From contig CALFRN010000288.1 in assembly GCA_937919085.1 (NCBI GenBank), forward strand, positions 1 to 46,167: 46,167 nt of DNA. The letters run 5' to 3'. The notes under the pieces were generated by a model. It was not told where the DNA came from and did no database searches. It saw nothing but the letters and a program-made list of their open reading frames with translations. The DNA is from an uncultured Reyranella sp. GTDB lineage: Bacteria > Pseudomonadota > Alphaproteobacteria > Reyranellales > Reyranellaceae. The number at the start of each line of letters is the position of its first letter. The first letter of the stretch is position 1. A program made the position numbers and the translations under genes. Positions 6,413 through 46,059 of this stretch are shown piece after piece.

Positions 6413-6517
6413 CTTCGACTCTCGAAACTGCATGGTTGCGCGGCGCAGGATAAGCCGACAGAGATGACGCATCCAACTGCCGCCGGCGTCCGACTGGCGG
6501 AAACCCGAGAAGCGCCA

Positions 6518-7675: not shown

Positions 7676-7687
7676 CGGAGACCGGAT

Positions 7688-29976: not shown

Positions 29977-30024
29977 CTCGATCCTCCGTTGCTGCCAAAA
30001 TCCTAGCCGTGGTCACGCCGGCCG

Positions 30025-30792: not shown

Positions 30793-31502
30793 GTTCCCAG
30801 GTACGCTTCGATGACGGCGGGATTGCCGCGGATGTCGTCGACGCCGCCTTCGGCGATGATCTTGCCCTGGTTGAGGGCGACGACCCTGGTCGAGAGCCGG
30901 TAGATCGATGTCAGGTCGTGGCTGATCAACAGGACGGCCTTGCCCGCGTCGGACATTTCCTCGATGCGCTCGATCATGAACTTGCAGAGCACGGGATGAA
31001 CGCCGGCGAACGGCTCGTCGAGCATGACGATCGGCGGATCGGGCATCAGCATGCGTGCCATCTCGAGCAGCTTCTGCTGGCCGCCCGAGAGCTCCTCGGC
31101 GTAGTTGTGGCGAAGGTCGATCAAGTGCATACGTGCGAGCATGCCCTCTGCGCGCTCAGTGAGTTCGGCGTCGGTGGCGTGCTGGTCCAGCACCGGCACC
31201 AGCAGGTTGTCGATCAGCGACATCTTGCGAAAGACGCGCGGTACCTGGAAAGTGCGGCCGATGCCTTTATGGGCAACGACGTGCGGCGGCTGACCGGTGA
31301 CGCGCGTGCCCGAAACGAACACATCGCCGCCGTCGGGACGGTAGAGGCCGCAGATGCAGTTCATCAGGGTCGTCTTGCCGGCGCCGTTGACGCCGATGAT
31401 TCCCAGTGTTTCGCCGGCCCCGGCTCGCAGGTCGACCCCATCCAGCGCGACAAGGCCGCCAAAGCGCTTGGTGAGTCCGCGGGTTTCGATCGCGACGGTC
31501 AT
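30789..31502 (-). CDS. livG: ABC transporter ATP-binding protein, LivG type
   Basis: A 237-residue ATPase subunit. Walker A is GVNGAGKTT, the signature LSGGQQKLLEMAR, Walker B PIVMLDEPFAGVHP and the H-loop ISHDLTSIYRLS, with the GIGRTFQVPRVF Q-loop characteristic of LivG. It overlaps the upstream livH gene as ATGA (31499-31502) and the downstream livF by 4 nt. The Liv-type importer needs one copy each of LivG and LivF, both present here. Confidence 0.93.
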   Translation of the reverse strand: MTVAIETRGLTKRFGGLVALDGVDLRAGAGETLGIIGVNGAGKTTLMNCICGLYRPDGGDVFVSGTRVTGQPPHVVAHKGIGRTFQVPRVFRKMSLIDNLLVPVLDQHATDAELTERAEGMLARMHLIDLRHNYAEELSGGQQKLLEMARMLMPDPPIVMLDEPFAGVHPVLCKFMIERIEEMSDAGKAVLLISHDLTSIYRLSTRVVALNQGKIIAEGGVDDIRGNPAVIEAYLGT

Positions 31503-32380
31503 TTCCGGGCACTCGTGCCGAGGAGGCCGGACGGCCGCAGGAAGATCGTGCCAACCAGGATCGCGAATCCCACGATCTGGGCCAGCGCCTGCGGCAGGAA
31601 CACCGTCGCCATCTGCTCGGCCAGGCCGAAGACCACGCCCGCCAGCAGGGCACCCACGGGATTGCCGAGTCCACCCAGCACGACGACGATGAAGGCGATG
31701 ATCGTGTATTCGGTGCCGGAAAAGGCATTAAATGCCGGAAACACGAGGGCCACCAGCACACCGGTGATACCGGCCAGCGCCGTCGCCAGCGCAAAGGCGA
31801 AGGCCGAGAGGCGCACGATGTCGACGCCCACGATCTGGATCGCCTCGGGGTTCATGATCGCCGCGCGCAGTGCCTTGCCGGGAAGGGTGCGGAAGAGAAA
31901 CACTGCCAGGGCGGCCGAGATCGCCACGGTGATTGCCAGCGCCACCAGCCGCGCTGTCGAAACGTAGATCGGTCCAACCTGCAGTGAGATCGGCGTGAAA
32001 CTGTAATCGATGGAGTGCGAATCGGCTTCGAACAGCAGCAGCATGAGAGCCGCCGCCGTGATCGACACACCGTAGAACATCAGGAACGACATCAGCTCGG
32101 GGTCGTCGCTGCGCGACAGGCGGGGAATCAGTACGTAATAGAGCCCCCAACCGGCCGCGAAGAAGGCGATCGCCGCCACCGGAAGGGCGAGCAGGGGCGG
32201 TACGCCCAGGCCGGTGAACAGGACATAGGCGAAGAAGGAGCCGGCGATCACAAACTCGCCATGGGCGAAGTTCACCACGCGCAGCACGCCGTAGAGCAGG
32301 GTAAGGCTGACGCCGATCAGGGCGTAGACGCTGCCGACGATCAGGCCGTTCACGATGCCATTCAGGATCAACAGTTCCAT
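31499..32380 (-). CDS. livH: ABC transporter permease, LivH type
   Basis: A 293-residue inner-membrane permease with about eight hydrophobic helices. The N-terminus ELLILNGIVNGLIVGSVYAL then LTLLYGVLRVVNFAHGEF is the LivH signature. The EAA-like coupling loop is GKALRAAIMNPEAIQIVGVD, which contacts the ATPases, and the tail VGTIFLRPSGLLG is typical. ATG 32380 has AGGGG upstream; the frame continues to 32410, but that would overlap livM and lacks homology. It begins 8 nt after the livM stop and forms the heterodimeric pore with LivM. Confidence 0.92.
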   Translation of the reverse strand: MELLILNGIVNGLIVGSVYALIGVSLTLLYGVLRVVNFAHGEFVIAGSFFAYVLFTGLGVPPLLALPVAAIAFFAAGWGLYYVLIPRLSRSDDPELMSFLMFYGVSITAAALMLLLFEADSHSIDYSFTPISLQVGPIYVSTARLVALAITVAISAALAVFLFRTLPGKALRAAIMNPEAIQIVGVDIVRLSAFAFALATALAGITGVLVALVFPAFNAFSGTEYTIIAFIVVVLGGLGNPVGALLAGVVFGLAEQMATVFLPQALAQIVGFAILVGTIFLRPSGLLGTSARK

Positions 32381-32388
32381 GGTAGCCC

Positions 32389-33351
32389 CTATGGCACGTA
32401 GCGGCGCCATTGCGGCTTGCGCCGCAATATGCTGCCCACGATCCCGCGCGGCAGGAACAGCACCAGGGCCACCGTGGCCACGCCCAGGATCAGGAGGTTG
32501 AGAAGCGGAAACTGCCGCCAGATGAGTTCGTCGAGCCAGACCATGACGACCGCTCCGATGATCGGGCCGGTAACCGTTCCCAGTCCGCCCGCAACGGCGT
32601 AGATCACCGTCTTGGCGGTGATCAGCGTGTTGAAGGCGGTCTCGGTGTCGACGACATTTGTGTACCAGGCCTCGACGCCGCCGCAGACCGCCGGGAAGAA
32701 GGCTGCGATCATCCAGCCGTAGAGCCGCACGCGCGGCACGTTGATTCCCATCATGTCGGCCGCGTCGGCGTCATCGCGCGTCGCGCGGAGTGCCTTGCCC
32801 AGTCGCGAGCGCGACAGCCACAGGATGGTGGCAAGAGCCACGACCATCACCCCCATCATGACGTAGAAGCTCTGCACCGGATGAGCGCGGCTGCCGAGCT
32901 GAATGCCGAAACTACCGCCGGTGATCTCTTCCGGCATGTTGGTGATGACCAGGCGGCAGATGCCGGCGAGGGCCAGGCTGACGATACCGAAATAGATGCC
33001 CGAAAGACGCAGCGTCGGCGCGAACAGCAGCGCCAGAACCAGGCCTGCGAGGCCGGAGAAGGGAAGGGCGAGGAACACCGGGAAAGCTGCCTTCTTGACC
33101 AGGATTGCCGTCGTAAAGGCGCCGATCCCGTAGAATGCCACATAGCCGAAGGGCAGGTAGCCAGAGAACCCGGAGGAAACGTTGAAAGCTGACGCCATGG
33201 TGATCCACAGCATCAGGTAGAAATGGAAGGCGACGTTGAGGCCGAAGACCGGGACCAGCGCGAAATAGATCAGTAGCGCGCCGCCGATCAGTGTCACGAG
33301 GGTGAAGTAGATGTGGTTGGCTGGATCTCGCGGACGGGACGTAACGGGCAT
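32389..33351 (-). CDS. livM: ABC transporter permease, LivM type
   Basis: A 320-residue permease with about eight to nine helices. Family features are FNVSSGFSGYLPFGYVAFYG, FGIVSLALAGICRLVITNM with NMPEEITGG, the coupling loop SRLGKALRATRDDADAADMMG, and GGLGTVTGPIIGAVVM. It is the first gene of the importer operon in transcription order (livM-livH-livG-livF-binding protein). The 112 nt upstream hold two hairpins and presumably its promoter. The presence of all five parts indicates a working importer for a branched-chain amino acid or related amide/aromatic solute. Confidence 0.92.
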   Translation of the reverse strand: MPVTSRPRDPANHIYFTLVTLIGGALLIYFALVPVFGLNVAFHFYLMLWITMASAFNVSSGFSGYLPFGYVAFYGIGAFTTAILVKKAAFPVFLALPFSGLAGLVLALLFAPTLRLSGIYFGIVSLALAGICRLVITNMPEEITGGSFGIQLGSRAHPVQSFYVMMGVMVVALATILWLSRSRLGKALRATRDDADAADMMGINVPRVRLYGWMIAAFFPAVCGGVEAWYTNVVDTETAFNTLITAKTVIYAVAGGLGTVTGPIIGAVVMVWLDELIWRQFPLLNLLILGVATVALVLFLPRGIVGSILRRKPQWRRYVP

Positions 33352-33369
33352 CGGAATTTAGTACCTTAG

Positions 33370-33450
33370 GTCGTGCCGCGTTACCAGAGTGCGGCGCGAC
33401 TGTGGCCGCCGCCATTCTGCCGCCGTGGGCCGGTAAAGTCGTACCCGGCC
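33370..33450. terminator. Two hairpins between the DHA2 exporter and livM
   Basis: Hairpin one pairs GTCGTGCCGC (33370-33379) with GCGGCGCGAC (33391-33400), with one G-U pair. Hairpin two pairs GGCCGGTA (33428-33435) with TACCCGGCC (33442-33450), with a one-base bulge. Both lie just past the exporter stop on the minus strand and before livM. They could end exporter transcription or form the livM leader; neither has a U-run. Confidence 0.35.
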
Positions 33451-33463
33451 ACGCAAGACACGA

Positions 33464-34957
33464 TCAGCGCCTCTGCCGCGAGTGAACCGCAAACAACAAC
33501 GCCAGCGGCATCGTCAGCAGCGGCACCACGGTCATCAGGTAGAAGGCGTTGATGTAGCCGATCATGGCCGCCTGGCGCTGGATCTCGGTGGTCAACCGCG
33601 CTTCGACCTGGCCGCCGGTCCGGCCGAAGGCGTTGATCCAGGGCGCGATCAGATCCTGCGTGAAGATGGTTATGCCACTGGCCAGATTGACGTGGGCCTC
33701 GGCGTTGGCATGGGCGAAAACAACCAGGGTCAGGGAAATGAAGAAGCTGCTGCCCAGCATGCGCACGAGGGCGAAGATGGCGTTGCCCTGGGTCAGTAGC
33801 GGGCCCGGCATCGTCGAGAAGGCGAGGACGGCCATGGGCGTGTAGCACAGCCCGAACCCGAAGCCGTGCATGATATTGGTCCACATCACGTCGTTGGCGG
33901 TGAGATTGATGTCGAGCGATGCCATCTGGAAGCCGGCGAAAGCCTGGATGGCCAGTCCGAGGAACAGGCAGAAGCGGGCGTTGATCCTTGTGAGCTGGGC
34001 GACGACGCAGAACGAGGCGAGATTGCCCAGTCCGCGGGCGGCGATCAGGTAACCGATCGCGGTGTCGGGATAGCCCAGCAGTTCCTGCAGGAGCGGCGGG
34101 AACAGGACCATGGGCGTATATTGCAGCATCCCCATGATCAGGGCGACGCCGATGCCGACGCTGAAGTTGCGGTCACGGAAGGTCGCAGCATCGAACAGCG
34201 GTGCTCGTGCCGTCGCCATGTGAATGGCGAACATGACGGCGAACAGCGCGGCGATGACGCATTCGGCGACGATCTCGAGCGAATCGAACCAGTCGTTGCG
34301 CTGGCCGCGGTCGAACACGAGCTGAACCGCCGCAATCGCAATGGCGATGAATGCATAACCGACGTAGTCGAAGCGCCGTGCGGTTCCCTTCTCGCGATCG
34401 GTCAGGGCCAGCAGCACCGCAATAAGGCTGATGGTGCCGAGCGGCAGGATCAGGAAGAACGTCCAGCGCCAACTCATGTACTCGGCGACCAGCCCGCCGA
34501 AGGTCGGTCCGAGGATCGGCCCCATGACGCCGCCGACCCCCCACATCATGATGATGAAGGGATGCTGGCTGCGGGTGAAGCTCGCGAGCAGGATGGTCTG
34601 GCCCATCGGAAAGATCGGCGCGCCGAACGCGCCCTGAACCACCCGCAGCGCCAGCATCGCTTCCAGTGACTGGACGAGGCCGCACAGCATCGAGGCCGCA
34701 GTGAAGCCGACCACCGAGCACGCCATCAGGGTCCGCCAGCCGAGCTTCGCGGCGAGCCAGCCGGTGAGGGGAGTGGCGATGGCCGTTGCAACGAGGTTGA
34801 AGGTAAGCACCCAGGATATCTGTTCCTGGGTAGCCGACAGGGCGCCCTTGAGCTGGGGCAGGATGACGGTGACGCTGGTAGCCGTAAGACCGAATAGAAT
34901 CGTCGTGAACTGCACGCACAGAAGGATCAGCCACTGTCGCGCCGTGATGTTGCCCAT
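33464..34957 (-). CDS. DHA2-family MFS drug exporter (EmrB/QacA-like, 14-TM)
   Basis: A 497-residue H+-coupled exporter with 14 predicted helices. Landmarks are TM1 LFGLTATSVTVILPQLKGAL, QISWVLTFNLVATAIATPLTG, motif A GWLAAKLGWRTLMACSV, and GPILGPTFGGLVAEYMSWRW, the DHA2 motif C and following Trp-Arg-Trp. The helix-rich C-terminal half matches EmrB-like permeases. ATG 34957 is preferred; the frame to 35026 adds 23 hydrophilic residues. No EmrA-type membrane-fusion protein or MarR/TetR regulator is adjacent, so it may act alone or with a remote partner. Substrate unknown. Confidence 0.9.
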   Translation of the reverse strand: MGNITARQWLILLCVQFTTILFGLTATSVTVILPQLKGALSATQEQISWVLTFNLVATAIATPLTGWLAAKLGWRTLMACSVVGFTAASMLCGLVQSLEAMLALRVVQGAFGAPIFPMGQTILLASFTRSQHPFIIMMWGVGGVMGPILGPTFGGLVAEYMSWRWTFFLILPLGTISLIAVLLALTDREKGTARRFDYVGYAFIAIAIAAVQLVFDRGQRNDWFDSLEIVAECVIAALFAVMFAIHMATARAPLFDAATFRDRNFSVGIGVALIMGMLQYTPMVLFPPLLQELLGYPDTAIGYLIAARGLGNLASFCVVAQLTRINARFCLFLGLAIQAFAGFQMASLDINLTANDVMWTNIMHGFGFGLCYTPMAVLAFSTMPGPLLTQGNAIFALVRMLGSSFFISLTLVVFAHANAEAHVNLASGITIFTQDLIAPWINAFGRTGGQVEARLTTEIQRQAAMIGYINAFYLMTVVPLLTMPLALLFAVHSRQRR

Positions 34958-35082
34958 GTCGCCGAAACCTGCGCTGCGCTGCCGTCCGCCGTCAACGATT
35001 CTGATGACTGCGGCTCGGCAATCCACCAGGCGGTATGGGCGTCAGATGCCCGTCGCCTCGCGAACGTCGCGTCTGTCCGTGG

Positions 35083-35178
35083 TCAGGCGGTGTAGAGCCG
35101 CAGCACGCCGTAGGCCACGGTACTGCCGAGCATCACCGCGGCAATGATCGTCAAGGCGACGAGTTGGGCGCGATTCAT
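35083..35178 (-). CDS. 31-residue single-helix membrane peptide downstream of the TRAP permease
   Basis: ATG 35178 to TGA 35083 encodes MNRAQLVALTIIAAVMLGST followed by VAYGVLRLYTA: a short basic N-terminus, one hydrophobic helix and a short tail. The start lies 4 nt after the TRAP permease stop, and a GGAG motif (inside the last permease codons) sits about 8 nt upstream, so translational coupling is likely. The frame has normal codon use for this DNA. It is too short for routine calling. It may be a small accessory subunit stabilising the permease; I know of no named family, so function is inference. Confidence 0.55.
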   Translation of the reverse strand: MNRAQLVALTIIAAVMLGSTVAYGVLRLYTA

Positions 35179-35182
35179 GGGC

Positions 35183-37060
35183 TCACTCCGCCGGTCTCGG
35201 CTGCGCCACCGACCGGAATTTCTGGCTGAGAAGGGCGATGACCAAGATGCCGACACCGATGGCGTCGGTGACCATGCTGGGGTCGATCAGCATCAGCGCC
35301 CCGATAAACAGGGGCACCCTTTCGTACCAGGTCGCGCGGCGCAGGAAGTAGCCCTCCAGGCTCGCCGCCAGGGCTATGACGCCGATGGAGCCGGTCACGA
35401 TCGCCCGCAGTACTTCGTCCCAGCTTCCGATGAACAGCAGCGACGGATTGAAGATGAAGAAATAGGGCACGACGAATCCGGCTGCGGCGAACTTCACGGC
35501 ATGCAGGCCGGCCATCCACAGACTGCCGCCGCTGATGGTGACCGCGGCATAGACCGCCAGTGCAACCGGCGGCGTCACCGCCGACAGGCAGGAAAAGTAG
35601 AAGGCGAACATGTGGGCGGCGATGGGCTCGACGCCGAGCTTGACGATCGCCGGAACCAGCAGGGCAGCCTGCATGATATAGGCCGGAGTGGTCGGCATGC
35701 CCATGCCGAGAATGATGCTGGCCATCATCGTGATCATGAGCGCCAGCACGAGCGAGCCTTCGGTGAAACTGACCAGAAACCCGGTGAAACGCAGCGCCAG
35801 CCCGGTCTGCAGCACGATACCGATGACGATTCCGGCGCAGGCGCAGGCCATGGCCACAGGCACGGTATGAATCGCGCCATCGCGGAGCGCTTCCAGGCAG
35901 GCCTTGGGGCGCAGGCCGGTGGCAGGGCGCAACCAGGAAATCGCAATCAGTCCGCCGGTGGCGATGATGGCGCCGTAGGTCGGCGTGAAGCCCATGAAGA
36001 GGAGCGCCAGCAGGACGATCACCGGCAGGAAGAGATGCGCCTGCGCGATCATGATGTGGCGCAGGATCGGCAGTTCCTCGCGCGCCAAGCCTCTCAGCCC
36101 GCCGCGCGCGGCGTTGAAGTGGATCGCCGCGAACAGCGCGCCGTAATAGAGAAAGGCCGGAATTGCCGCGGCGATCATGACCTCGGTGTAGGTGGCACCC
36201 AGAAACTCGGCCATGACGAAGGCTGCCGCGCCCATGATCGGCGGCATGATCTGTCCGCCGGTCGAGGCCACGGCCTCGATGGCGGCGGCGGCCTCCGGCT
36301 TGAAGCCGGTCTTCTTCATCAGGGGAATGGTGAGCCAGCCGGTGGTCATGACGTTGGCGACCGCCGAGCCGGAAATGGTGCCGAACAGGCTGGACGACAC
36401 GACCGCCACCTTGCCGGGACCGCCGCGCGCGCCGCCGGCGATGGCATTGGCGAAGTTCATGAAGAACGAACCGGCCCCCGATTTTTCCAGGAACGCGCCG
36501 AAAATGATGAACAGGATGACATAGGTGCCGGCCACACCCAGCGGTACGCCGAACACGCCCTCGGTGGTGAACCAGCTCTGGTCGATCGTGATCTCGGTGG
36601 TGAGTCCACGATGATGCAGGAATCCGCCCATCCATTGGCCCATCAGCGCGTAGGCCAGGAATATGATCGCCACGATGGGCAATGCGGCGCCGATCGTGCG
36701 CCGGGTGCCCTCCAGAACCAGCAGGATACCCACGATACCCACGGCCATGTCCGTGGCCGTCAGGGGATGCGCCGTCGGGAAGCGGTTCACGACATAGTCG
36801 TACTTCACGAACATGTAGCCGATGCAGGCCAACGACACGATGGTCAGACCGAGATCGAGCCAGGGAATGCGGTCCGGCGTTGAGTCCTTGCGGGCCGGCC
36901 ACAGCAGGAAGGCGAGCACCAGGCTGAAGGCCAGCGTGATGAACAGCAGGGCGTACTGGTCGGGCGCGTAGATCGTCAGCCGCGCGTAGATGTGGTAAAC
37001 TGACATGGCGATAGCCACCACGCCGACGACGAGGCCTGCATATCCCGTGAGCGCACGCAC
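35183..37060 (-). CDS. TRAP transporter, fused permease subunit (DctQM-type, TAXI system)
   Basis: A 625-residue permease fusing the small 4-helix DctQ-like part (about 1-150: YAGLVVGVVAIAMSVYHIYA; YALLFITLAFSLVLAFLLWP; VVNRFPTAHPLTATDMAVGI) with the large 12-helix DctM-like part. TAXI-type fused permease motifs include LGVAGTYVILFIIFGAFLEKSGAG, GGARGGPGKVAVVSSSLFGTISGSAVANV, GGQIMPPIMGAAAFVMAEFLG, and GMGMPTTPAYIM. TRAP systems use an ion gradient and a periplasmic receptor to import organic acids or other anions. It begins 15 nt after the TAXI binding-protein gene and is followed by a 31-residue membrane peptide. Confidence 0.94.
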   Translation of the reverse strand: MRALTGYAGLVVGVVAIAMSVYHIYARLTIYAPDQYALLFITLAFSLVLAFLLWPARKDSTPDRIPWLDLGLTIVSLACIGYMFVKYDYVVNRFPTAHPLTATDMAVGIVGILLVLEGTRRTIGAALPIVAIIFLAYALMGQWMGGFLHHRGLTTEITIDQSWFTTEGVFGVPLGVAGTYVILFIIFGAFLEKSGAGSFFMNFANAIAGGARGGPGKVAVVSSSLFGTISGSAVANVMTTGWLTIPLMKKTGFKPEAAAAIEAVASTGGQIMPPIMGAAAFVMAEFLGATYTEVMIAAAIPAFLYYGALFAAIHFNAARGGLRGLAREELPILRHIMIAQAHLFLPVIVLLALLFMGFTPTYGAIIATGGLIAISWLRPATGLRPKACLEALRDGAIHTVPVAMACACAGIVIGIVLQTGLALRFTGFLVSFTEGSLVLALMITMMASIILGMGMPTTPAYIMQAALLVPAIVKLGVEPIAAHMFAFYFSCLSAVTPPVALAVYAAVTISGGSLWMAGLHAVKFAAAGFVVPYFFIFNPSLLFIGSWDEVLRAIVTGSIGVIALAASLEGYFLRRATWYERVPLFIGALMLIDPSMVTDAIGVGILVIALLSQKFRSVAQPRPAE

Positions 37061-37075
37061 GGCCGGGGCCTGCCG

Positions 37076-38062
37076 CTACTTGAGCAAGCCGACTTCGCGA
37101 TAGTACTTCTCGGCTCCAGGGTGATAAGGCATGCCGAAATTCTGCGCCATCTCGGCCGGAGCGATGTCCTTCATCGTCTTGACGACGTTGGCGAATTCGC
37201 CTCGTCCTTCGATGATCGCCTTGGTGATCTTGTAGACGGTCTCCGGCGAAGCGCCCGACGACGCCATCAGGACGGTCGGCGACTGGAAGGTGAGGACATC
37301 CTGGGTGATGCCCTGTTCCTTGTAGGTGCTGGCCTTGACCGTATGGCGTACGAACCCGGCATTCAGCTTCTTCAGTTCGGCGAACTCCGCGTCGCTGACC
37401 TGGATCATGCGCAGCGGCATCGCAGAGCCGAGATCGAGGACGAACGAGGCGGGCACCACCGTAAACCAGCCGCTCGCCACCGCCTGCCGGTTCTTCACCG
37501 CATCGGCGTTCGACGAGACGGGGCCGTAGCTCTTCGGCCCGAGATCGGCCAGCGTCATGCCGTTAACCTTGAGCAGGTACTCCCAGCCGGCGGCCAGGCT
37601 GGTGTTGCCGCGCGCCGGCAGCGCCACGGGCTTGCCCTTGAGATCCTTGATGTTCTTGATGTCACTGCTTTCGGGAACCACGAGCTGCCACACGTTGGGA
37701 TAGAAGTTTGCGACGAACAGCGCCTTGTCGGTCGGCTTGCCGGCGAACTGGCCCTTGCCCTCGCGCGCATCCGCCACGACCGTGGTCATGGACCAGCCGA
37801 GGTCGGCCTTGTCCATGCGGATCTTCTCCATGTTCACCAAGGCGGCGCCCGGCTCGACCGCGACGTTCAGGTCGGGAACCCGGGAATTGACCACCTGGGA
37901 CACCGAGGCGGCCAGCGGCGTCCAGCTGCCGCCGGTGGGGCCGGCACTGAAGATGACTTCGGTCTTGGTCTGCGCCTGGGCAAGGCCGGCTGCCGCAAGC
38001 GTCAGGCCTGCAGCGAGAAGAACACGCGTGACACCCTTCGGACTCGCTGATGCGATCGTCAT
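37076..38062 (-). CDS. TAXI-family TRAP transporter substrate-binding protein
   Basis: A 328-residue periplasmic receptor. The signal peptide (VTRVLLAAGLTLAAAGLAQAQ) is followed by the TAXI start EVIFSAGPTGGSWTPLAASVSQVVNS. Other landmarks are DADLGWSM-like KADLGWSMTTVV, ELQLVV-like WQLVVPESSDIKNIKDLKG, ARGNTSLAAGWEYLL, and a C-terminal MPYHPGAEKYYREVGL. ATG 38062 has a strong GGGAGG upstream; the longer frame to 38251 lacks a signal and runs into the divergent promoter region. TAXI receptors bind compounds such as glutamate or 2-oxoglutarate; the ligand here is unknown. It heads the operon with the fused permease. Confidence 0.93.
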   Translation of the reverse strand: MTIASASPKGVTRVLLAAGLTLAAAGLAQAQTKTEVIFSAGPTGGSWTPLAASVSQVVNSRVPDLNVAVEPGAALVNMEKIRMDKADLGWSMTTVVADAREGKGQFAGKPTDKALFVANFYPNVWQLVVPESSDIKNIKDLKGKPVALPARGNTSLAAGWEYLLKVNGMTLADLGPKSYGPVSSNADAVKNRQAVASGWFTVVPASFVLDLGSAMPLRMIQVSDAEFAELKKLNAGFVRHTVKASTYKEQGITQDVLTFQSPTVLMASSGASPETVYKITKAIIEGRGEFANVVKTMKDIAPAEMAQNFGMPYHPGAEKYYREVGLLK

Positions 38063-38191
38063 TGTTGCCTCCCTGTGGTTGCACTTTCCTCGCCGCCTTG
38101 AAGCGCCGGGAAGTACTTTCTTCGTTGCGATCAAGGCTACCGGCTGCGCAGGGACGCTGTCAAACGGCGTGGTGCGGGTAGCGACGGCGGC

Positions 38192-38220
38192 TTGAACACG
38201 GAGTCTGTGACCTCTAGCTT
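38192..38220 (+). promoter_or_regulatory. Candidate sigma-70-type promoter for the amidohydrolase
   Basis: TTGAAC (38192-38197) and TAGCTT (38215-38220) are separated by exactly 17 nt, 29 nt before ATG 38250, in the 187-nt divergent region shared with the TAXI receptor gene. The -35 is good and the -10 is weak, so this is tentative. Confidence 0.3.
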
Positions 38221-38249
38221 CGGCGGCAAGCGAGTGGGAGGAAACATTC

Positions 38250-39089
38250 ATGCCGACAATCGATGCCCAGGTTCACTGTTATGAGCGCAACCATCCCGGC
38301 CGCCCATGGGTCGCGGTGCTCGCCGGACCACCGGAAGTCACGGCCGACGACATGATCAAGGCCATGGACGCAGTCGGCGTCGACGGCGCACTGCTGGTCT
38401 CGGTCTATACGATGTACCGCTGGGACGAGAGCTATGCCGTCGGGGTGCAGAAGGCGCATCCCGGCCGCTTCGGCGTCATCAAGCCGGTCAATGCCAACGA
38501 CCCCAAGGTGGCCGATACGATCGCGGCCTGGGCGGCGATGGACGGCACTGTCGCCATCCGCATCATGATGACGCCGGAGGTATCGACCGATGCGGCCGAC
38601 CCCGGCATCAACCGCGTGCTGGCCGCCGCCGCCAAGCACGGCCTGCCGGTCAACCTGCTGGCGCGCGACCGGCTGGAGCAGGTGGCCGAACTCGCCCGGC
38701 GCAACCCGAACACGCAGATCGTCATCGACCATCTCGGCCTCGAACAGCCCTTCGTGCCGCCGGTGCCGAAGGACCCGTGGCACGAACTGCCCAAGGTGCT
38801 GGCGGTCGCGGCGCAGAAGAACGTCGCCATCAAGATTACCGGTGCCTGCACCCTCAGCCACGAGAAGTTCCCCTTCAAGGACATCTGGGATCCGCTGGGC
38901 CGAATCTTCGATGCCTACGGTCTCGACCGTTGCATGTGGGGCACCGACTGGACCCGCGCCGTGAACCTGCTCACCTATAAGGAAGGCGTCGAGTCCTTCC
39001 GAGTCACCGATCGCCTGTCCGACAGCGACCGCGCCACGCTGATGGGCGGCTCCCTGCAGAAGATCTACGGCTGGTCGCCGAAGAAGTAG
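38250..39089 (+). CDS. Amidohydrolase family 2 (TIM-barrel metal-dependent hydrolase)
   Basis: A 279-residue cytoplasmic enzyme of the Amidohydrolase_2 family, which includes decarboxylases and lactonases acting on aromatic or sugar acids. The N-terminal metal motif is IDAQVHCYERNHPG. Other likely active-site elements are the His of QIVIDHLGLEQ, the Lys/Thr strand VAIKITGAC, and the late Asp of CMWGTDWTR. A strong GGGAGG precedes ATG 38250. It is divergent from a TAXI TRAP transporter, so it may process the imported substrate, for instance a lactone or carboxylate. Which reaction it catalyses cannot be decided from sequence. Confidence 0.9.
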   Translation: MPTIDAQVHCYERNHPGRPWVAVLAGPPEVTADDMIKAMDAVGVDGALLVSVYTMYRWDESYAVGVQKAHPGRFGVIKPVNANDPKVADTIAAWAAMDGTVAIRIMMTPEVSTDAADPGINRVLAAAAKHGLPVNLLARDRLEQVAELARRNPNTQIVIDHLGLEQPFVPPVPKDPWHELPKVLAVAAQKNVAIKITGACTLSHEKFPFKDIWDPLGRIFDAYGLDRCMWGTDWTRAVNLLTYKEGVESFRVTDRLSDSDRATLMGGSLQKIYGWSPKK

Positions 39090-39290: not shown

Positions 39291-39330
39291 GACACCCGAC
39301 CTCCACGGGTCGTGGAGGTCGGGAAGTGTC
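39291..39330. terminator. Long hairpin terminator after the sugar-type GMC gene
   Basis: Arms CCCGACCTCCAC (39295-39306) and GTGGAGGTCGGG (39312-39323) pair perfectly over 12 bp around GGGTC. An outer GACAC/GTGTC pairing (39291-39295 / 39326-39330) extends the stem with a small bulge, as an alternative to the basal C-G pair. It directly follows the TGA of the minus-strand GMC gene and faces the amidohydrolase on the other side, so it can serve as a shared terminator. There is no strong U-run. Confidence 0.65.
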
Positions 39331-40825
39331 ACTTGGCAGTGGCCATCGTCTCCGCCAGCCGAGCGGCGTTGCGCAGCGCCAGTGCGGTGATGGTGAGGTA
39401 GGAGTTGGCGCTGCCCTGCTGCGGCCAGATCGCGGCGTCGGCACAGCCTAGGTTGCCGATACGCCAGAAGCGGCCGTCGGGATCGGTCACCGACGCCGAC
39501 GGGTCGAGGCCCATGCGCAGGCCGCCGTATTCGTGCAGCGCCGCGCCGGGGCCGTTCTCCTCAGTACGGACCAGTTCGGCGCCGAGGGCCGCGGCGACGT
39601 CGGTGGTGAAGGTCGACATGGCGGCGAGCGCGGCGAGGTCGCCGGGGCTGCGGTCGTTGACCACGTAGTAGTCGGCCATGGCGCCCGCGTCGTCGCGCAG
39701 GACGAGGCGGCCTTCGCGTTCGGCCTTGCTGACGCCGAAGCAGTAGAACAGCACGAACCGGCCGCTGGCGTTGCCGTTGAGCCAGACCGTGGCATGCAGC
39801 GGGCTGTACCAGGTCTCGGGGAACATGCCCTGCATCTGGACATGGAAAGGCCGCTCCGCCGTGGGCGGGATGAAGATATAGAGTGCCTTCTCGCCGATCG
39901 GCTCGGGCAGGCAGAACACGGCCTGGCGGAACAGATGGTCGCCCATGTAGCGCCCGACCAGCGGGTCGCCATCGCCCAGCCCGGAGGCCAGTGCGAGCCG
40001 GGTCGACTGCACGGCGCCACCGGCCAGGACGACCTGGCGTGCGGGAATGTCGAAGGTCCGGCCGGTGGCGCGGTCGCGCACCGCGAGCCTGCGAACGAGC
40101 CCGCCGTCGACGACCAGCTTCGTCACCTCGGTTTCGGCGGCCAGCGACAGGCGGGCACCGTTTTCGATCCGGCCGAAATGCGGGCAGCGCAGCAGGCGGG
40201 AGACGGAGGAGTCGAAGCCGCGCGACATGTGTCCGTCATGGACCGCGAGCGTGTCGATACCGAGCGGTGCGTTGGTCGCGGGGATGCCCTTGGCCCCGAG
40301 CCGCGCCAGCAGCCGGTCCTGTGCGGCATGGTGCATGAACGGTGCTGCCGCACCGGTCGCGGAGCCGCCCGACGCGCCGATCAGCTTCTCGGCGCGCTCG
40401 TACCATGGCCGCATTTCGTCAGCGTCATGCGGCCAGTCGGCGAAGTCGCTGTCGAGGAAGCGCGGCGTAAAGCCGCCCCAGAACAGGGTGCGACCGCCGA
40501 CCACCGACCAGGCATTGTTGTTGGTCTCGACCTTGCCGGCATGGGCCTTGGCCGCCTCGGCGCCGGAAGTCCAGACAGTGCGGTAGCGCACGAGGTCGTG
40601 GATGCCGGGGACGATGTCCTCGCGATTGGCGAAGGGGCCGGAGCCGACATGCTCGGTCAGGACCAGCGGCCCGGCCTCGAGGATGGCCACCCGCAGGCCG
40701 CGATCGGCCAGCTCTATCGCCGTGGTCACGCCGGCGGTGCCGCTGCCGATCACGAGGCAGTCGACGTCGGCCGTGGCGATCGCGCGCGGGTCGCTCAGCA
40801 GAAGGGGGGCAATCGGACTTTTCAC
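39329..40825 (-). CDS. GMC oxidoreductase of the sugar-dehydrogenase/pyranose-oxidase type
   Basis: A 498-residue FAD enzyme, starting at GTG 40825, which overlaps the aminotransferase stop as GTGA and has GGAGG upstream. The Rossmann motif is VIGSGTAGVTTAIELADRG with acidic EAGPL. WSVVGGRTLFWGGFTPRF replaces the choline-dehydrogenase signature, and VLAGGAVQSTRLAL marks the second FAD segment. The catalytic pair is H431 in LHEYGGLRMG and N474 in SANSYLTITALALRNA. The N...LTxxALAxR ending is that of pyranose oxidase, gluconate/fructose dehydrogenase and relatives, unlike the other GMC enzyme at 23062. It probably oxidises a sugar or cyclitol hydroxyl to a ketone. No signal peptide is visible. 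It is the last gene of a sugar-related operon. Confidence 0.9.
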   Translation of the reverse strand: MKSPIAPLLLSDPRAIATADVDCLVIGSGTAGVTTAIELADRGLRVAILEAGPLVLTEHVGSGPFANREDIVPGIHDLVRYRTVWTSGAEAAKAHAGKVETNNNAWSVVGGRTLFWGGFTPRFLDSDFADWPHDADEMRPWYERAEKLIGASGGSATGAAAPFMHHAAQDRLLARLGAKGIPATNAPLGIDTLAVHDGHMSRGFDSSVSRLLRCPHFGRIENGARLSLAAETEVTKLVVDGGLVRRLAVRDRATGRTFDIPARQVVLAGGAVQSTRLALASGLGDGDPLVGRYMGDHLFRQAVFCLPEPIGEKALYIFIPPTAERPFHVQMQGMFPETWYSPLHATVWLNGNASGRFVLFYCFGVSKAEREGRLVLRDDAGAMADYYVVNDRSPGDLAALAAMSTFTTDVAAALGAELVRTEENGPGAALHEYGGLRMGLDPSASVTDPDGRFWRIGNLGCADAAIWPQQGSANSYLTITALALRNAARLAETMATAK

Positions 40826-42168
40826 CGTGCCGCCTCCGGGCGCGATGCGAAGGCATTGCCGACCTTCTTGAAGGCGGCAATGATGTCGTCGACGTCCTGA
40901 TCGGTCAGCACCGATGCGATGCTGAGGAGCGCACCGCGCTCCGACATGTCGTCGCAAACCGGCAAGGCACCGCGGGCGTAGCTGTAACCGGCGGCGAAGG
41001 CGTTGGAAGGATGGGTCCAGGGGAAGCCGTCCCTGGCGTTCGACCGCTTGTTCACAAGGCTCGGGATGTTGAAGTACCAGTGCATCCCCCAGTCGCACAT
41101 TGGCACGCAGGTCAGGCTGCCTTCCGGCCCGCGCACACCTTCGGCCTGCAGTGCCGCGGTGAAGCGCTGGCAGATGTCGGCCGTCGGATAGATGGTCATC
41201 AGGAACGGGCCGGTATCGCCGGCGGGATCGCCGACCTCGCGGAACGAGATGCCGGGAATACCCTTGATCGCCTCGCGGATCTTCCATTTGGCATCTCTCA
41301 TGTGGCCGGTGATCTTGCGGACCTTCCGCATCTGTCCCAGCGCCATCGCGCCCGACAGTTAGGACATCCGGCTGCCGGTTCCCCAGAACTGGTAGCGTTC
41401 GTCGGACGGATCGAGCCGGCCGTGTTCGTTGCGGGCATAGCCGAGGTCGTGCAGGGCGGAGCAGCGCTTGAACAGGTCCTCGTTTTCGGTGACGAGCAAT
41501 CCGCCTTCGCCACTGGTCATGTTCTTGTTGAGCTGGAAGCTGTAGATGCCGATGTCGCCGAACGAGCCGGAGGGGCGCCCCTTCACGCTGGCACCGATCG
41601 CCTGGGCACAGTCTTCCAGCAGCCACAGGTCATGCTTTTCGCAAACCTCGGCGATGCGGTCGTTGTGGCCCATCGCGCCGCTCATGTTGACCGTCAGTAC
41701 AGCGCGGGTGTGCGGGCCGATCTTGCGCTCCAGATCGGCGGGATCCATGCAGAAGGTGGCGTCGATATCGACCAGGCGGGGAATTGCGCCGGTCCTGACG
41801 ATCGCGCTCATGCAGCTCACCCACATGTAGCCGGGTACCATCACCTCATCGCCCGGCCCGACGCCGAAGGCGGCCAGGGCGATATGTAGCGCCGAGCTGC
41901 CGCTGTTCACGCCGAGCGCATGCTTGTGGCCGAAGGTGGAGCACCATTCGGCTTCCAGCCGGTCCACCATGCCTTTTGCGTCGAGCCCGTAGAAGCGAAA
42001 GGGACTGCGCGCGTCGATCACCTGGTCGACGAGGTGCTTTTCGTCGTCGTCGATGTAGTGAGCGCCGGGCAGTTCCCACGGCAGCGGCGTGTCGCGAACC
42101 GGCGTGCCGCCTTCGATGGCTAGGCGATTGGCTAGGTGACGTGAGGTACCTGACAAGTGATTCTCCAT
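40822..42168 (-). pseudogene. DegT/DnrJ/EryC1/StrS-family PLP aminotransferase interrupted by an in-frame TAA
   Basis: Reads as one 448-residue protein except for a TAA at 41361-41359 (codon 270), in the conserved stretch WGTGSRMS-stop-LSGAMALGQ where relatives carry an acidic Glu. A single G-to-T change (GAA to TAA) explains it. The frame is otherwise intact on both sides: 41359-42168 (269 residues) holds EGGTPVRD, VNSGSSALHIAL, LLEDCAQAIGAS and cofactor K215 in SFQLNKNMTSGEGG; 40822-41346 holds the C-terminal substrate domain. The family aminates keto-sugars or keto-cyclitols (AHBA synthase, scyllo-inosose aminotransferase, NtdA). Each half alone should be inactive. ATG 42168 lacks a clear ribosome-binding site. 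Its end overlaps the GMC start. Recent inactivation, sequencing error or stop read-through cannot be told apart here. Confidence 0.85.
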
Positions 42169-42244
42169 GAATTGGGAAAAGCTGGGACAAACGCGCCGTG
42201 CCGGCAGCGGTGCCGCCGGACGATACGCGGAGGAGGAAGTGCAG

Positions 42245-43216
42245 CTAGGCGGAAGCGGCTGATTTGGAAGCCAGCCAGGCAAGGCCGAGAAAAGCCGGAT
42301 CGGGACGTATGATGACAGCGGTCGGAATGCGCGCCAGATATCCCGACATCGGTCCCTTGGATTCGAACCGTTCCCGGAAGGCCGAGCGCTGCAGGAAGTC
42401 GGTAAAGTGGGGAGTGACGCCGCCGCCGATGAACAGCCCGCCGCGCGCACCCAGGGTGAGAGCCACGTTGCCGGCGACGCTACCCAGGAAGGCGCAGAAC
42501 ATGTCCAGGGCCTGGCGGCTGGCCGGGCAGTCTCCCGCCAGAGCGTGCTTGACGATGTCGGCGCTGGTCCGTTCCGGCACGGTCAGGCCATCGACCATCG
42601 CAATGGCGTGGTAGAGTTGCACCAGGCCGGGGCCCGACAACACGCGCTCGACCGAGACATGGTGAACCTGGGCGCGCAGCGCCAGGATGACTGCGTCCTC
42701 GCGCCGGTTCTCGCTCGACAGCGTGGCGTGGCCGCCTTCGGTGACCAGCAGGGTTTCGCTGCCTGCGCCGAAGGCGATGGCCGCAAGCCCGAAGCCCGTG
42801 CCCGGTCCCATCACCGCCATGGTGCCGCGCTCGAGCGGCGTGCCGTCGCCCAGAGCGAACAGGTCTTCGCTGCGCAGGGCCAGCAGGGCCCAGCCCAGTG
42901 CCTCGAAGTCGTTCAGCACCTGGACATTCTCCAGGCCGAGCCGTTGGCGGATGCGCTTCGTATCGACTGTCCAGGCAGCGTTGGTCATGTTGACGCGGCC
43001 ATTCACGACCGGGCCGGCGGCGGCTATCAGCGCCCGGTCCGGTGTATGTCCCGTCGCGGGGCCGGCCAGGAAGGCACGGGCGGCGTCGATCGGCGAGTCA
43101 TAGTCTGCGACGGCATAGGTGGTCGACGCACTGATGTCGCCGTCGACCAGCAGCGCGAAGCGAGCGTTGGTCGCGCCGATATCGGCCAGGATCGCGGAAG
43201 AGGCGGATTTTGTCAT
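42245..43216 (-). CDS. glk: Glucokinase
   Basis: A 323-residue hexokinase of the bacterial Glk (ROK-independent) family, which phosphorylates glucose to glucose-6-phosphate with ATP. Family motifs are LADIGATNARFAL (phosphate 1), the catalytic D103 in VLNDFEALG, GPGTGFGLAAIAFG, and the sugar-binding EGGHATLSSENRRED. The adenosine motif is in ARGGLFIGGGVTPHF. Length is normal for the family. It lies 36 nt after the first sugar porter and 76 nt before the aminotransferase on the same strand, so imported hexose would be phosphorylated by this enzyme. Other hexoses (mannose, 3-keto- or amino-glucose) are possible substrates. Confidence 0.93.
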   Translation of the reverse strand: MTKSASSAILADIGATNARFALLVDGDISASTTYAVADYDSPIDAARAFLAGPATGHTPDRALIAAAGPVVNGRVNMTNAAWTVDTKRIRQRLGLENVQVLNDFEALGWALLALRSEDLFALGDGTPLERGTMAVMGPGTGFGLAAIAFGAGSETLLVTEGGHATLSSENRREDAVILALRAQVHHVSVERVLSGPGLVQLYHAIAMVDGLTVPERTSADIVKHALAGDCPASRQALDMFCAFLGSVAGNVALTLGARGGLFIGGGVTPHFTDFLQRSAFRERFESKGPMSGYLARIPTAVIIRPDPAFLGLAWLASKSAASA

Positions 43217-43252
43217 GGCGTCATCTCCTCTCTGTCGTTGGCTTCGTTCGGC

Positions 43253-44674
43253 TCACGTGCGGCCGCCGGGAGTGGTCGCGGCTGCGGCGAGGGGGAGGCC
43301 GAGGTCGCGCACGGATCGGCCGCGTGCCAGGTTGGCTTCGATCAGCTCGAGCGACCGGCCACGGGTCTCCGGGACCAGCACGACCACGAAGACCAATGCG
43401 GCAACGCTCACCAGCCCATAGAGACCGAACACCAGCGCAATGCCCATGGCTTCGACCAGAACGGGAAATGTCAGCGAGACAAGCACGTTCACGCCCCAGG
43501 CGGTGGCCGACGCGATGCCCATGCCGACGCCGCGCAGGGCAAGGGGAAACAATTCCGACATCAGTACATACGGTAGTGGGCCGAGGCTGACGGCGAAGGC
43601 CATGACGAACAGGCACAGGCACACCACAGCGAACATGTTGGCCCAGTCCGAACCTCGTCCGCCCAGCAGCGCAAGGGCAAGGGCGATCAGGCTGAGTGCC
43701 ATCAGCACCAGGCCGGCGATCAACAACGGACGTCGCCCGAGCCGATCGATGAGCCCAATGGCGATGATCGTTGCAATCACGTTGACCGTGCCGATGCCGG
43801 CGGTGGCCAGAATAGGACCGAGCGCGCCACCGATGCCGACGTGGGCGAAGATCACCGGGGCGTAGTAGAGGATCGCGTCGATGCCGCTCAGGTTGGCGAA
43901 GGCAAAGAGGCCGGCGGCAACGATCAGGACCACGCGGGTCCGGCCGCGAAAGAGGTCGCGCCAATTGCCGTCCGGCGAAGCGTCTATGCGCAGCGGCAGT
44001 TCCTCGCCCTGGCCGCCGGTCAGGCGTGCGTGAGCGCGCGCCGCGTCGGCGTGCCGGCCGTGGAGCAGATACCAACGCGGACTCTCCGGCAGGGCGGCGA
44101 CGCTGGCGACAATCAGCACCCCGGGAAGGGCGCCGACGCACAGCATGGCTTGCCACCAGCCAGAAGGTGTCCAGGCGGCGCCCGTCAGGTAGGACAGCAG
44201 AATGCCAACCGTAATGGCGAGCTGGATAACAGAGACCAGCGCGCCGCGCAGCCGGGCCGGCGCGGTCTCGCTGACATAGAGCGGCGCGACCATGGTGGCG
44301 GCGCCGACGCCTAGGCCGGTCACGGTGCGCCAGATCAGCAACGAGGAGACCGATTCGGCAAGTGCGGCTCCGACTGGGCCCACTATGAACAACAGGGCCG
44401 TGAGAAGAAGCACGGACCGTTCGCCCAGGCGGTGGATCAGTGTGCCGGCGATGAGCGAACCGACCAGTCCACCCAGCAGTACCGAAGAGACGACAACGCC
44501 CTGCATGACAGGATCGAGTCCAAAATCCGCAGTCACGAAGTCGAGAACAGGGGCGATCACCGCCGTGTTGTAGCCGACGAGCAGGCCGGAGAGTGCGGCC
44601 AGTATGGCGATGAGCGCGATCATCGGCCTGATCCGGTGTTGGCGCAGGTTTCGAAGTGAACTGGCATCCGTCAC
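43253..44674 (-). CDS. Sugar-porter MFS transporter (XylE/GalP-like), copy 1
   Basis: A 473-residue sugar:H+ symporter with 12 helices, starting at GTG 44674, which overlaps the upstream porter's stop as GTGA. Sugar-porter signatures are GGLVGSLIAGTLIHRLGERS, LYVSETAPARLRGAL after TM4, ALPESPRWYLLHG, GLIDRLGRRPLLIAG and VPETRGRSLELIE. Helix 7 reads FANLSGIDAILYYAPVIF, where most porters have QQxSGINxxxYY; here the double Gln is absent, which may alter sugar binding. It is paired with a second porter 44671-46059; the two share motifs but differ in helix 7, so they may take different sugars. Confidence 0.92.
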   Translation of the reverse strand: MTDASSLRNLRQHRIRPMIALIAILAALSGLLVGYNTAVIAPVLDFVTADFGLDPVMQGVVVSSVLLGGLVGSLIAGTLIHRLGERSVLLLTALLFIVGPVGAALAESVSSLLIWRTVTGLGVGAATMVAPLYVSETAPARLRGALVSVIQLAITVGILLSYLTGAAWTPSGWWQAMLCVGALPGVLIVASVAALPESPRWYLLHGRHADAARAHARLTGGQGEELPLRIDASPDGNWRDLFRGRTRVVLIVAAGLFAFANLSGIDAILYYAPVIFAHVGIGGALGPILATAGIGTVNVIATIIAIGLIDRLGRRPLLIAGLVLMALSLIALALALLGGRGSDWANMFAVVCLCLFVMAFAVSLGPLPYVLMSELFPLALRGVGMGIASATAWGVNVLVSLTFPVLVEAMGIALVFGLYGLVSVAALVFVVVLVPETRGRSLELIEANLARGRSVRDLGLPLAAAATTPGGRT

Positions 44675-46059
44675 TCAGCCGGAACTTCACGACGCAACGA
44701 GGCGAAGGGCTTGCCGGAATTGAGGTGGTCCTCAATGGCCTCGAGCGAGTGCCCGGTCGTCTCCGGCACCCGCGTCAGGGTAAAGATGATACCGCCAAGG
44801 CAGATGACCGAGAAGAGCGTGAAGGTAAAAGCGAGGCCAGGCCCGGCCAGCATCAGCGGGAAGGTGAAGACCACCACGAAATTGAAGCCCCAGTTGCTGA
44901 TCGAGGCCATGCTCATGCCCGGTCCGCGCGCCCGCAGTGGGAAGATCTCCGACATCAGCACGTGCGGCAGTGGCCCGATGCTGATGGCAAAGGAGGCGAT
45001 GTAAAGCATGAGTGCCACGATGATGACCCACGACGGCACGAGGGTGGGATTGATCACTGCAAGGGCGATCGTGAGCATCGTCGCGGAAGTGCCGACAAAG
45101 CCCAGGATCAGCAGGGGACGCCGCCCGATCTTGTCGATGAGGTACATCGCCAGGATGGTCGTCAGCAGGTTGACCGTTCCGATGCCGACGGTAGCAAGAA
45201 TCTGGGTGCTTGTGCTGTCGAAGCCCGCGTGGTTGAAGATTTCCGGCGCGTAGTAGATCACGGCGTTGATGCCGCTGAGCTGCTGGAGGAAAAAGAGGCC
45301 GGCTCCGACGATCACCGCCGGCCGAATCTTCGGTTCCAGCAACGCCTTGTAGCCCGACTTTTTGCCGACTTCGGCGCGCGCCGTGCTGACCATCTCATCG
45401 AATTCACCTTCGACCGGCGAGGCAGCACCACGCAGGCGCTGCAGGCTGGTCCGTGCCTCGGCAGCAAATCCCTTGAGGATCAGCCAACGGGGTGATTCCG
45501 GCAGAAAGACGAGCCCGGCGAAAAACAGAACGCCCGGCAGGGCCCCGAGCGCGAACATGAGGCGCCACATCCCGTCGTCGTTCCATGGGATGTCGGCATC
45601 GGAATCGATGGCCAGGCCAGTCAGGTAGGATGCCAGGATGCCGACGGTGATCGCGAGCTGATAGGTGGAGACCAGTGCGCCGCGAATGCGAAGTGGAGCG
45701 GATTCCGAGATGTAGAGCGGCGCCGTAACCGCAGCGAGCCCAATTGCCAGCCCCAGGATGAGACGCGCCACGATGAGCATCCAGACCGCGGTGATGCCGG
45801 CGGCCATGAGAGAGCCCACCGTAAACAGCGCGGCGGCCGCCATCAGTGCGCGCCGGCGGCCGAACCGGTCGGTGATGCGGCCCGCGATGCTGGCGGCGAC
45901 AAGGGCCCCGAGCGGGACTGCCGCCGTCATGAAGCCGCCGACCAGCGGATCCATCGGGAAGTCCTTGTCGAGAAGCGGGCGCGCTACCGCGATGATGCCT
46001 TCGTCATAGCCGAAGAGGAATCCGGCGATGGCTGCAATGGCGGCGAGAAAGTAAATCAT
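44671..46059 (-). CDS. Sugar-porter MFS transporter (XylE/GalP-like), copy 2
   Basis: A 462-residue sugar:H+ symporter, first gene of the minus-strand operon. It starts IYFLAAIAAIAGFLFGYDEG, the canonical sugar-porter TM1 motif. It continues with GRITDRFGRRRALM, LYISESAPLRIRGAL, LPESPRWLILKG, FLQQLSGINAVIYYAPEIF (the intact QQxSGIN helix-7 sugar-binding motif), LIDKIGRRPLLILG and VPETTGHSLEAIE. AGAGGA precedes ATG 46059. It overlaps the next porter by 4 nt. The promoter should lie in the 108 nt between 46059 and the window end or beyond. Confidence 0.93.
   Translation of the reverse strand: MIYFLAAIAAIAGFLFGYDEGIIAVARPLLDKDFPMDPLVGGFMTAAVPLGALVAASIAGRITDRFGRRRALMAAAALFTVGSLMAAGITAVWMLIVARLILGLAIGLAAVTAPLYISESAPLRIRGALVSTYQLAITVGILASYLTGLAIDSDADIPWNDDGMWRLMFALGALPGVLFFAGLVFLPESPRWLILKGFAAEARTSLQRLRGAASPVEGEFDEMVSTARAEVGKKSGYKALLEPKIRPAVIVGAGLFFLQQLSGINAVIYYAPEIFNHAGFDSTSTQILATVGIGTVNLLTTILAMYLIDKIGRRPLLILGFVGTSATMLTIALAVINPTLVPSWVIIVALMLYIASFAISIGPLPHVLMSEIFPLRARGPGMSMASISNWGFNFVVVFTFPLMLAGPGLAFTFTLFSVICLGGIIFTLTRVPETTGHSLEAIEDHLNSGKPFASLRREVPAE

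Follow-up and report, generated by a model that had tools for sequence, protein, structure and literature searches.

A linked KdnA-like aminotransferase and sugar-oxidase-fold flavoenzyme as a candidate amino-sugar module in Reyranella and mycobacteria

A 46,167-nucleotide stretch from an uncultured Reyranella sp. (GenBank assembly GCA_937919085.1, contig CALFRN010000288.1; hereafter the window), part of a 4.9 Mb draft assembly in 525 contigs, carries five genes inside positions 39329-46059, all on the minus strand, that encode two sugar porters, a glucokinase, a DegT/StrS-type aminotransferase (AT) and a flavoenzyme of the GMC family. The AT and GMC genes adjoin each other in every clear locus that we found, and we consider it probable, with some reserve, that the AT-GMC module serves the biosynthesis of an amino sugar without nucleotide activation, for which we infer the substrate, the carbon position, the order of steps, the aminoacylation, the export and the product. 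What the analysis shows is the gene content, the linkage, the fold kinship and the conserved catalytic residues. The five genes, with one stop codon that lies inside the AT gene, are as follows.

44671-46059, minus strand: MFSa, sugar porter of the major facilitator superfamily (MFS), SP family, 462 aa (PF00083, 406.9 bits; TIGR00879, 396.5 against a cut-off of 237.8)
43253-44674, minus strand: MFSb, second sugar porter, 473 aa (PF00083, 356.3 bits; TIGR00879, 349.2 against 237.8)
42245-43216, minus strand: glucokinase, 323 aa (PF02685, 348.3 bits; TIGR00749, 266.0 against 225.45)
40822-42168, minus strand: AT, DegT/StrS-type aminotransferase, KdnA-like, interrupted (PF01041, 231.3 bits read through the TAA)
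41359-41361, minus strand: in-frame TAA, the only stop, which splits the AT gene
39329-40825, minus strand: GMC flavoenzyme with a predicted pyranose/glycoside oxidase fold (PF05199, 56.5 bits; PF00732, 32.2 bits; both above cut-off)

An earlier note on this DNA had described five co-directional genes with short or overlapping junctions, and Pfam matches and coordinates confirmed it: the porter genes overlap by 4 bases, 36 bases separate MFSb from the glucokinase gene and 76 bases the latter from AT (start assumed to be the ATG at 42168), and the GMC gene, starting with GTG at 40825, overlaps the AT stop codon by 4 bases. MFSa precedes MFSb, near the contig end, and scored under the cut-off of the GlcP model NF052357. 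The GC fraction is 0.663 for the cluster and 0.653 for the window.

Linkage and kinship of the aminotransferase and the flavoenzyme

Because the same 9/75 genomes of the window's family carry both AT (E 1e-60) and GMC, and AT adjoins GMC in 18/18 loci, the pairing is not chance. The 18 clear loci (the window, L038-L053 and L078) include Acidocella, Nitratireductor and two genomes of the genus of Mycobacterium sp. BK086, and the two genes occur in both orders, AT-GMC and GMC-AT. Genomes named by the GMC search were Reyranella massiliensis, two Reyranella bins and four other bins at 71-75% identity (L038-L044), and one genome (G045) holds two copies of the pair. Outside the family the pair is rare. 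Among 385 genomes sampled from the class (best 4 candidates per genome, so that infrequent copies may have escaped), GMC (E 1e-80) and AT (E 1e-110) were found only in the window's own genome; in the genus of BK086 the pair was present in 2/297 genomes (best 5 candidates per genome), and plasmid records gave no GMC match at E 1e-40. Seven of the 23 GMC loci (L054-L060) were left out of the linkage set as weak or partial matches (27-51% over 37 to 284 residues), and these gave no match to AT, glucokinase, porters, porin, exporter, nonribosomal peptide synthetase (NRPS) or sucrose-phosphate synthase (SPS) at E 1e-20.

The distance matrices of AT and GMC were correlated with r 0.974, a value as high being reached in 0/5000 permutations (15/18 loci), to which common descent contributes. 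The correlation and alignment set omits the near-duplicates L040 and L044 as well as L053, which ends at a contig end, and the second GMC copy of G045 (L037/L046) entered the alignments as a shortened sequence. A sugar-porter relative lies near the pair in every one of the 18 loci except L046, where the pair stands alone. The conserved adjacency of GMC, DegT and glucokinase genes, which the earlier note had proposed as a check, held for GMC and AT, in 18/18 loci and the same 9/75 genomes, and failed for glucokinase, which occurs in 8/18 loci, every one of them Reyranella, and cannot be counted as a defining member. We also dropped the glucokinase as part of the chemistry, as 10/18 loci are without it.

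The kinship of AT was judged by profile and fold rankings against solved structures. KdnA, the Shewanella 8-amino-Kdo transaminase (5k8b), came first by profile with 264.5 bits over profile positions 29-433, the second scoring 179.7, and lower ranks were taken by BtrR and RbmB (163.6-165.7 bits), AHBA synthase (148.1), KabA (118.3) and NtdA (112.0), so that NtdA is not the closest relative. KdnA was likewise first by fold (Z 40.7, rmsd 3.0, 372 aligned, 34% identity; second Z 38.4). With a mean pLDDT of 69.8 the model of AT is only fair, and the fold ranking therefore leans on the profile search. The profile match and a conserved Lys place AT in the DegT/DnrJ/EryC1/StrS family; the Lys of the SFQLNK motif (alignment column 211), which we take to be the pyridoxal phosphate (PLP) lysine, is kept in 15/15 aligned AT loci. 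KdnA is the best match in sequence and fold across nearly the whole of AT, and AT thus has the KdnA-like character of the transaminase in the KdnA/KdnB 8-amino-Kdo route. The two differ in that they are 34% identical, that AT exceeds KdnA by about 40-50 residues and that its partner is a flavoenzyme. No KdnB partner dehydrogenase was seen among the chosen neighbours covered by our Pfam scans, where not seen does not mean absent, and the genomes were not searched for KdnB. Open-licence literature yielded nothing joining Kdo8N, Shewanella and an aminotransferase.

KdnA serves lipopolysaccharide, and its substrate is a free sugar acid that carries no nucleotide. The grouping of AT with enzymes of lipopolysaccharide nucleotide-sugar pathways, which the earlier note had named as a refutation, is therefore half answered: the best match is a lipopolysaccharide enzyme, yet presumably one with a free sugar acid as substrate. 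A reading of the cluster as nucleotide-sugar lipopolysaccharide genes was dropped, a dehydratase and a nucleotidyltransferase being seen near L033 alone among the proteins scanned.

The flavoenzyme belongs to the GMC superfamily by both of its domains and by its FAD-binding glycine motif VIGSGTAG. Counting the GTG at 40825 as residue 1, its catalytic pair is H431 and N474, which the earlier note had placed correctly; the His is kept in 15/15 loci and the Asn in 14/14 loci with a letter at that position. In the model of the enzyme (mean pLDDT 81.9) the nearest fold was PsG3Ox with mangiferin (Foldseek E 1.3e-29; Z 33.9, rmsd 2.9, 423 aligned, 23% identity), followed by fungal pyranose oxidases with Z up to 32.7 and choline oxidase with Z 30.5, and this sugar-oxidase fold supports the sugar-type GMC oxidase proposed earlier. 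PsG3Ox requires H440 and N484 (PMC10646112), and both residues are conserved in the module enzyme. The module enzyme resembles the glycoside 3-/pyranose oxidases (PsG3Ox, the C-glycoside oxidase 7dve and DaCGO1) in fold, FAD motif and catalytic His and Asn, and differs from them at 20-25% identity and in falling far short of the pyranose oxidase equivalog TIGR02462 (58.8 bits against a cut-off of 544.9). On the model, the GMC enzyme would be fold kin of the bacterial glycoside 3-oxidases and pyranose oxidases rather than a member. Its FAD motif begins about 22 residues past the start codon, which leaves little space for a signal peptide, and the enzyme, judged by eye, is thus probably cytosolic.

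Gene clusters around the pair

Two arrangements of the pair were recognised. Type I, with AT followed by GMC, occurs in Reyranella, three Rhodospirillales bins, Acidocella aminolytica, Nitratireductor aquimarinus, Mycobacterium BK086 and a Rhodospirillaceae bin. Type II has the order SPS-like gene, MFS, MFS, GMC, AT and occurs in L051 (G042, of the window's genus) and L078 (G668, of the genus of BK086). AT and GMC thus stay together although order and partners change. The SPS-like proteins of L051 and L078 are 74% identical to each other and fuse a glycosyltransferase domain to a sucrose-phosphate-phosphatase domain, with scores under the best NCBIfam cut-offs. Directly after the type II cluster of L078, on the same strand (5841-7740), lie genes for a histidine kinase and a LuxR-type response regulator, possible control genes.

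An extended form of type I was found in 4/10 Reyranella loci (L038, L039, L040 and L044), which encode MFSb, glucokinase, AT, GMC, an OprB porin, MFSa, an efflux-type MFS protein and an NRPS. This NRPS is a single module of AMP-binding (A), carrier (T) and C-terminal condensation (C) domains (A-T-C). Its orthologs (87-100%) occur in 4/75 family genomes, 4/4 of them with the AT-GMC pair; six further family genomes, of the 10 with NRPS matches, showed 31-36% identity and were counted as unrelated. In L041 and L043 the OprB and MFSa genes follow GMC, and the whole genomes of both (G023, G028) gave no NRPS match at E 1e-100, while in L042 OprB and MFSa lie about 5 kb past MFSb on the same contig. 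The window's genome, one of these six, has no NRPS ortholog, the best match being a 1482-aa frame at 36% on another contig, and no porin match was found in it by a search without positive control. The porin, exporter and NRPS in these relatives change the likely product.

In Mycobacterium BK086 (L049) an A-T-C NRPS adjoins AT-GMC-MFSb. Compared with the Reyranella enzyme this pair-adjacent NRPS is 33% identical in A, 64% in T and 61% in C, and a second NRPS of BK086, on another contig, is 68% identical in A, 74% in T and 62% in C, with an adjoining exporter at 62%. Of 297 genomes of the genus of BK086 (E 1e-200; best 2 candidates per genome), a single one showed an ortholog of the Reyranella NRPS, at 66%, and it is the one that also holds the NRPS-linked AT-GMC pair. 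To judge from these comparisons, the C domain has been kept while the A domain was exchanged, and the acceptor of the C domain should be the small molecule that the clusters share. The Reyranella A domain may take beta-alanine: by motif, at the GrsA positions, its code would be V D W I T S L A D K, and no confirmation of the beta-alanine code was found in open-licence literature. The second A-T-C NRPS of BK086 and its exporter (L077 9695-14058) lie in a stretch without sugar genes, and Hen1/Pnkp RNA-repair genes and an AurF-type protein are encoded nearby.

Other neighbours of the pair vary from locus to locus. In the Reyranella locus L033 a xylose-isomerase-like TIM-barrel protein (PF01261; 2847-3761) is encoded 307 bases after GMC on the same strand; this type of fold is also used by C-glycoside lyases, and the neighbour is a hint of keto-glycoside breakdown in that locus. 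In L034 a gene for a GH16-type protein lies upstream of MFSb at a distance of about 0.9 kb, and regulators stand beside AT in L047 (GntR/FCD-type) and L050 (AraC-type). The remaining neighbours covered by these scans were transport proteins, hydrolases, oxidases, general enzymes or proteins without a family.

Proposed route and its alternatives

In the route that we propose, the porters would import (or export) a free sugar, the probably cytosolic FAD enzyme would turn one hydroxyl of the sugar or glycoside into a ketone, most likely at C3 as in the bacterial glycoside 3-oxidases, and the KdnA-like AT would swap the ketone for an amine to give a kanosamine-type 3-amino-3-deoxy sugar. In practice a flavin oxidase does not run in reverse, and the pair therefore most likely oxidises and then aminates. 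In 4/10 Reyranella loci and one Mycobacterium genome, the one-module NRPS would load an amino acid, the terminal C domain would pass it to the sugar amine, and the drug-efflux-type MFS protein would export the product; in the second form, the fused SPS/phosphatase-like enzyme would first build the sugar. Extending this, we tentatively suggest, as a possibility short of probable, that Reyranella and mycobacteria make a family of natural products in which an amino sugar (or amino-sucrose) is aminoacylated. A flavin sugar 3-oxidase and a KdnA-like transaminase would form the amino sugar and a stand-alone A-T-C NRPS would cap it, the amino acid being changed by A-domain exchange and the acceptor-binding C domain kept; Acidocella, Nitratireductor and other alphaproteobacteria would have simpler versions.

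By analogy, the closest described logic is that of ntdABC with glcP, with a different oxidase. In the neotrehalosadiamine/kanosamine route (Bacillus ntdABC and glcP; KabA) a glucose carbon is likewise oxidised and then aminated by an enzyme of DegT/StrS fold, and a glucose symporter in the operon is a precedent for the porters here (PMC5349653). The module differs from it in having a flavin GMC enzyme and an AT distant from NtdA (112.0 bits) and KabA (118.3 bits), and no NtdC-type NAD-dependent Gfo/Idh/MocA dehydrogenase was seen in the window cluster or the chosen neighbours scanned. The ntd route uses NAD-dependent oxidation on glucose 6-phosphate and the phosphatase NtdB, and the kanosamine-type routes known to us use NAD dehydrogenases. 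The NeoQ/NeoB paromamine 6'-oxidase and aminotransferase of neomycin-type aminoglycosides, presumably a GMC-type flavoenzyme followed by a PLP aminotransferase, offer a further likeness; NeoB, which we take to be a class III aminotransferase with an aminoglycoside substrate, differs from the module AT in these respects. The earlier note had recognised no described pathway, and in open-licence PMC full text we too found no paper on a GMC/aminotransferase amino-sugar route; open-licence literature on Reyranella biosynthetic gene clusters does not name the cluster in the titles or abstract starts among the matches listed. An antibiotic with alanine on 3-amino-3-deoxyglucose was not confirmed in the literature and carries no weight here.

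Several observations weigh against this proposal. Activity is known for no member of the module, and the solved relatives of the GMC enzyme are only about 20-25% identical to it. In the profile ranking a Burkholderia glucose dehydrogenase (93.1 bits) and pyranose oxidase (87.6) stand above PsG3Ox (75.9), and PsG3Ox itself attacks C3 of the glucosyl group in mangiferin, acts poorly on free glucose, at C2, and serves a two-step C-deglycosylation, not amination (PMC10646112). The xylose-isomerase-like neighbour in L033 and the GH16-type one in L034, each seen in one locus, also speak against synthesis. Six of the 10 Reyranella loci are without the NRPS, and for the Mycobacterium NRPS no relative was found at E 1e-100 in five whole genomes of further alphaproteobacteria that carry the pair (L045, L047, L048, L050 and L052). 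The Reyranella C domain (L029 15875-19075) reads HELVTDA instead of the usual HHxxxDG, with HE for HH in 4/4 orthologs, and its activity is uncertain for that reason; the Mycobacterium C domains read HHLINDG and HHLISDA.

The carbon position divides the evidence, C3 being favoured by analogy with the GMC relatives and the terminal carbon by the kinship with KdnA. The natural position of KdnA is the terminal carbon, so that C6 is also a possible position of amination, and KdnB/KdnA make 8-amino-Kdo by terminal amination. Accordingly the GMC enzyme could instead make an aldehyde from a primary hydroxyl and AT a 6-amino (or 8-amino, Kdo-type) sugar; KdnA is the nearest relative of AT by sequence and fold, and aldehyde-making GMC enzymes (choline oxidase, HMF oxidase) are among the relatives of the flavoenzyme, choline oxidase at Z 30.5 being not far under the pyranose oxidases. 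We regard this as unlikely, as the top fold rows are pyranose/glycoside oxidases, which attack ring carbons, and no Kdo or lipid A gene was seen among the chosen neighbours scanned. If inositol or a related cyclitol were oxidised and aminated to an inosamine, the porters would be inositol porters, and indeed the SP porter family includes inositol carriers and AT also resembles BtrR and RbmB (163.6-165.7 bits); KdnA nevertheless stands about 100 bits above BtrR, and the glucokinase, the OprB carbohydrate porin and the SPS-like partner point to glucose-type sugars, which makes a cyclitol route highly improbable.

A catabolic role, in which an amino sugar or glycoside enters through the porters and the porin, AT removes the amine and the GMC enzyme acts on a hydroxyl during breakdown, would fit the uptake-like set of two porters, porin and glucokinase, the regulators beside AT in L047 and L050, and the xylose-isomerase-like and GH16-type neighbours in L033 and L034; glycoside 3-oxidases serve C-glycoside breakdown (PMC10646112). 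These two enzyme-like neighbours are, however, each confined to one locus, whereas other loci have an NRPS and an efflux-type MFS protein beside the pair and type II loci an SPS-like synthetic enzyme, and we think a role in breakdown quite improbable. Of these accounts we prefer amino-sugar biosynthesis, best read as a counterpart of the kanosamine/neotrehalosadiamine route that depends on a flavin, with a product that in some cases would be aminoacylated and exported.

For the window itself the TAA at 41361-41359 has to be weighed as well, since it denies AT an uninterrupted frame and so counts against a working module there. The earlier note spoke of a repaired aminotransferase, which implies that the stop had been noticed, and did not state it. 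The part of AT before the TAA scores 212.4 bits for DegT_DnrJ_EryC1, and the gene read across it 231.3 bits (PF01041; cut-off 19.8). The relatives are intact, the 9 other AT places of the family lying in open frames of 448-593 aa, and 15 intact ATs from relatives aligned over the full length. For the stretch past the TAA, the window and L038 differ with dN 0.146 and dS 0.789 (dN/dS about 0.19), and two control pairs of intact ATs gave 0.130/0.963 (about 0.14) and 0.182/0.707 (about 0.26). As the constraint after the stop equals that of intact pairs, the stop is recent or an assembly error. That the window module is a decaying pseudogene cluster, or that the stop arose in assembly, is somewhat unlikely on our estimate and would be compatible with any reading for the relatives; the single in-frame TAA and the 525-contig draft speak for it, and the constraint kept after the stop means that any decay is recent. 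Because it has no NRPS ortholog, no porin match and a broken AT, the window's genome would make at most a free amino sugar, and possibly nothing.

Surroundings of the window cluster and significance

Elsewhere in the window, positions 28750-39089 encode parts of a branched-chain-type ABC transporter, an MFS protein, a fused TRAP permease and a TAXI-type solute-binding protein, and an Amidohydro_2 protein (38250-39089) adjoins these TRAP/TAXI/ABC transport genes. A second GMC oxidoreductase is encoded at 23062-24684 (Pfam, 190.1 and 137.4 bits) and is of a type clearly unlike the module enzyme. A prfB-like release-factor gene (PCRF and RF-1 domains) lies at 16953-18069, with a short leader frame that ends in CTTTGA at 17019; most of the gene lies in a different frame, the arrangement classically associated with programmed frameshifting.

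Amino sugars of the kanosamine type serve as antibiotics and as precursors. If the proposed route is right, flavin oxidation followed by a transaminase would lead from an unactivated sugar to an amino sugar in a short path of two enzymes, which enzyme chemistry could use, and natural A-domain exchange beside a conserved C domain would show cleanly how NRPS modules tolerate recombination. The variants with an NRPS or a sucrose-synthase-like enzyme are defined clusters that lend themselves to testing, in genera that have been little studied, and the occurrence of the pair across distant bacteria, sometimes beside an NRPS, suggests that amino-sugar products of a small family have so far gone undescribed.

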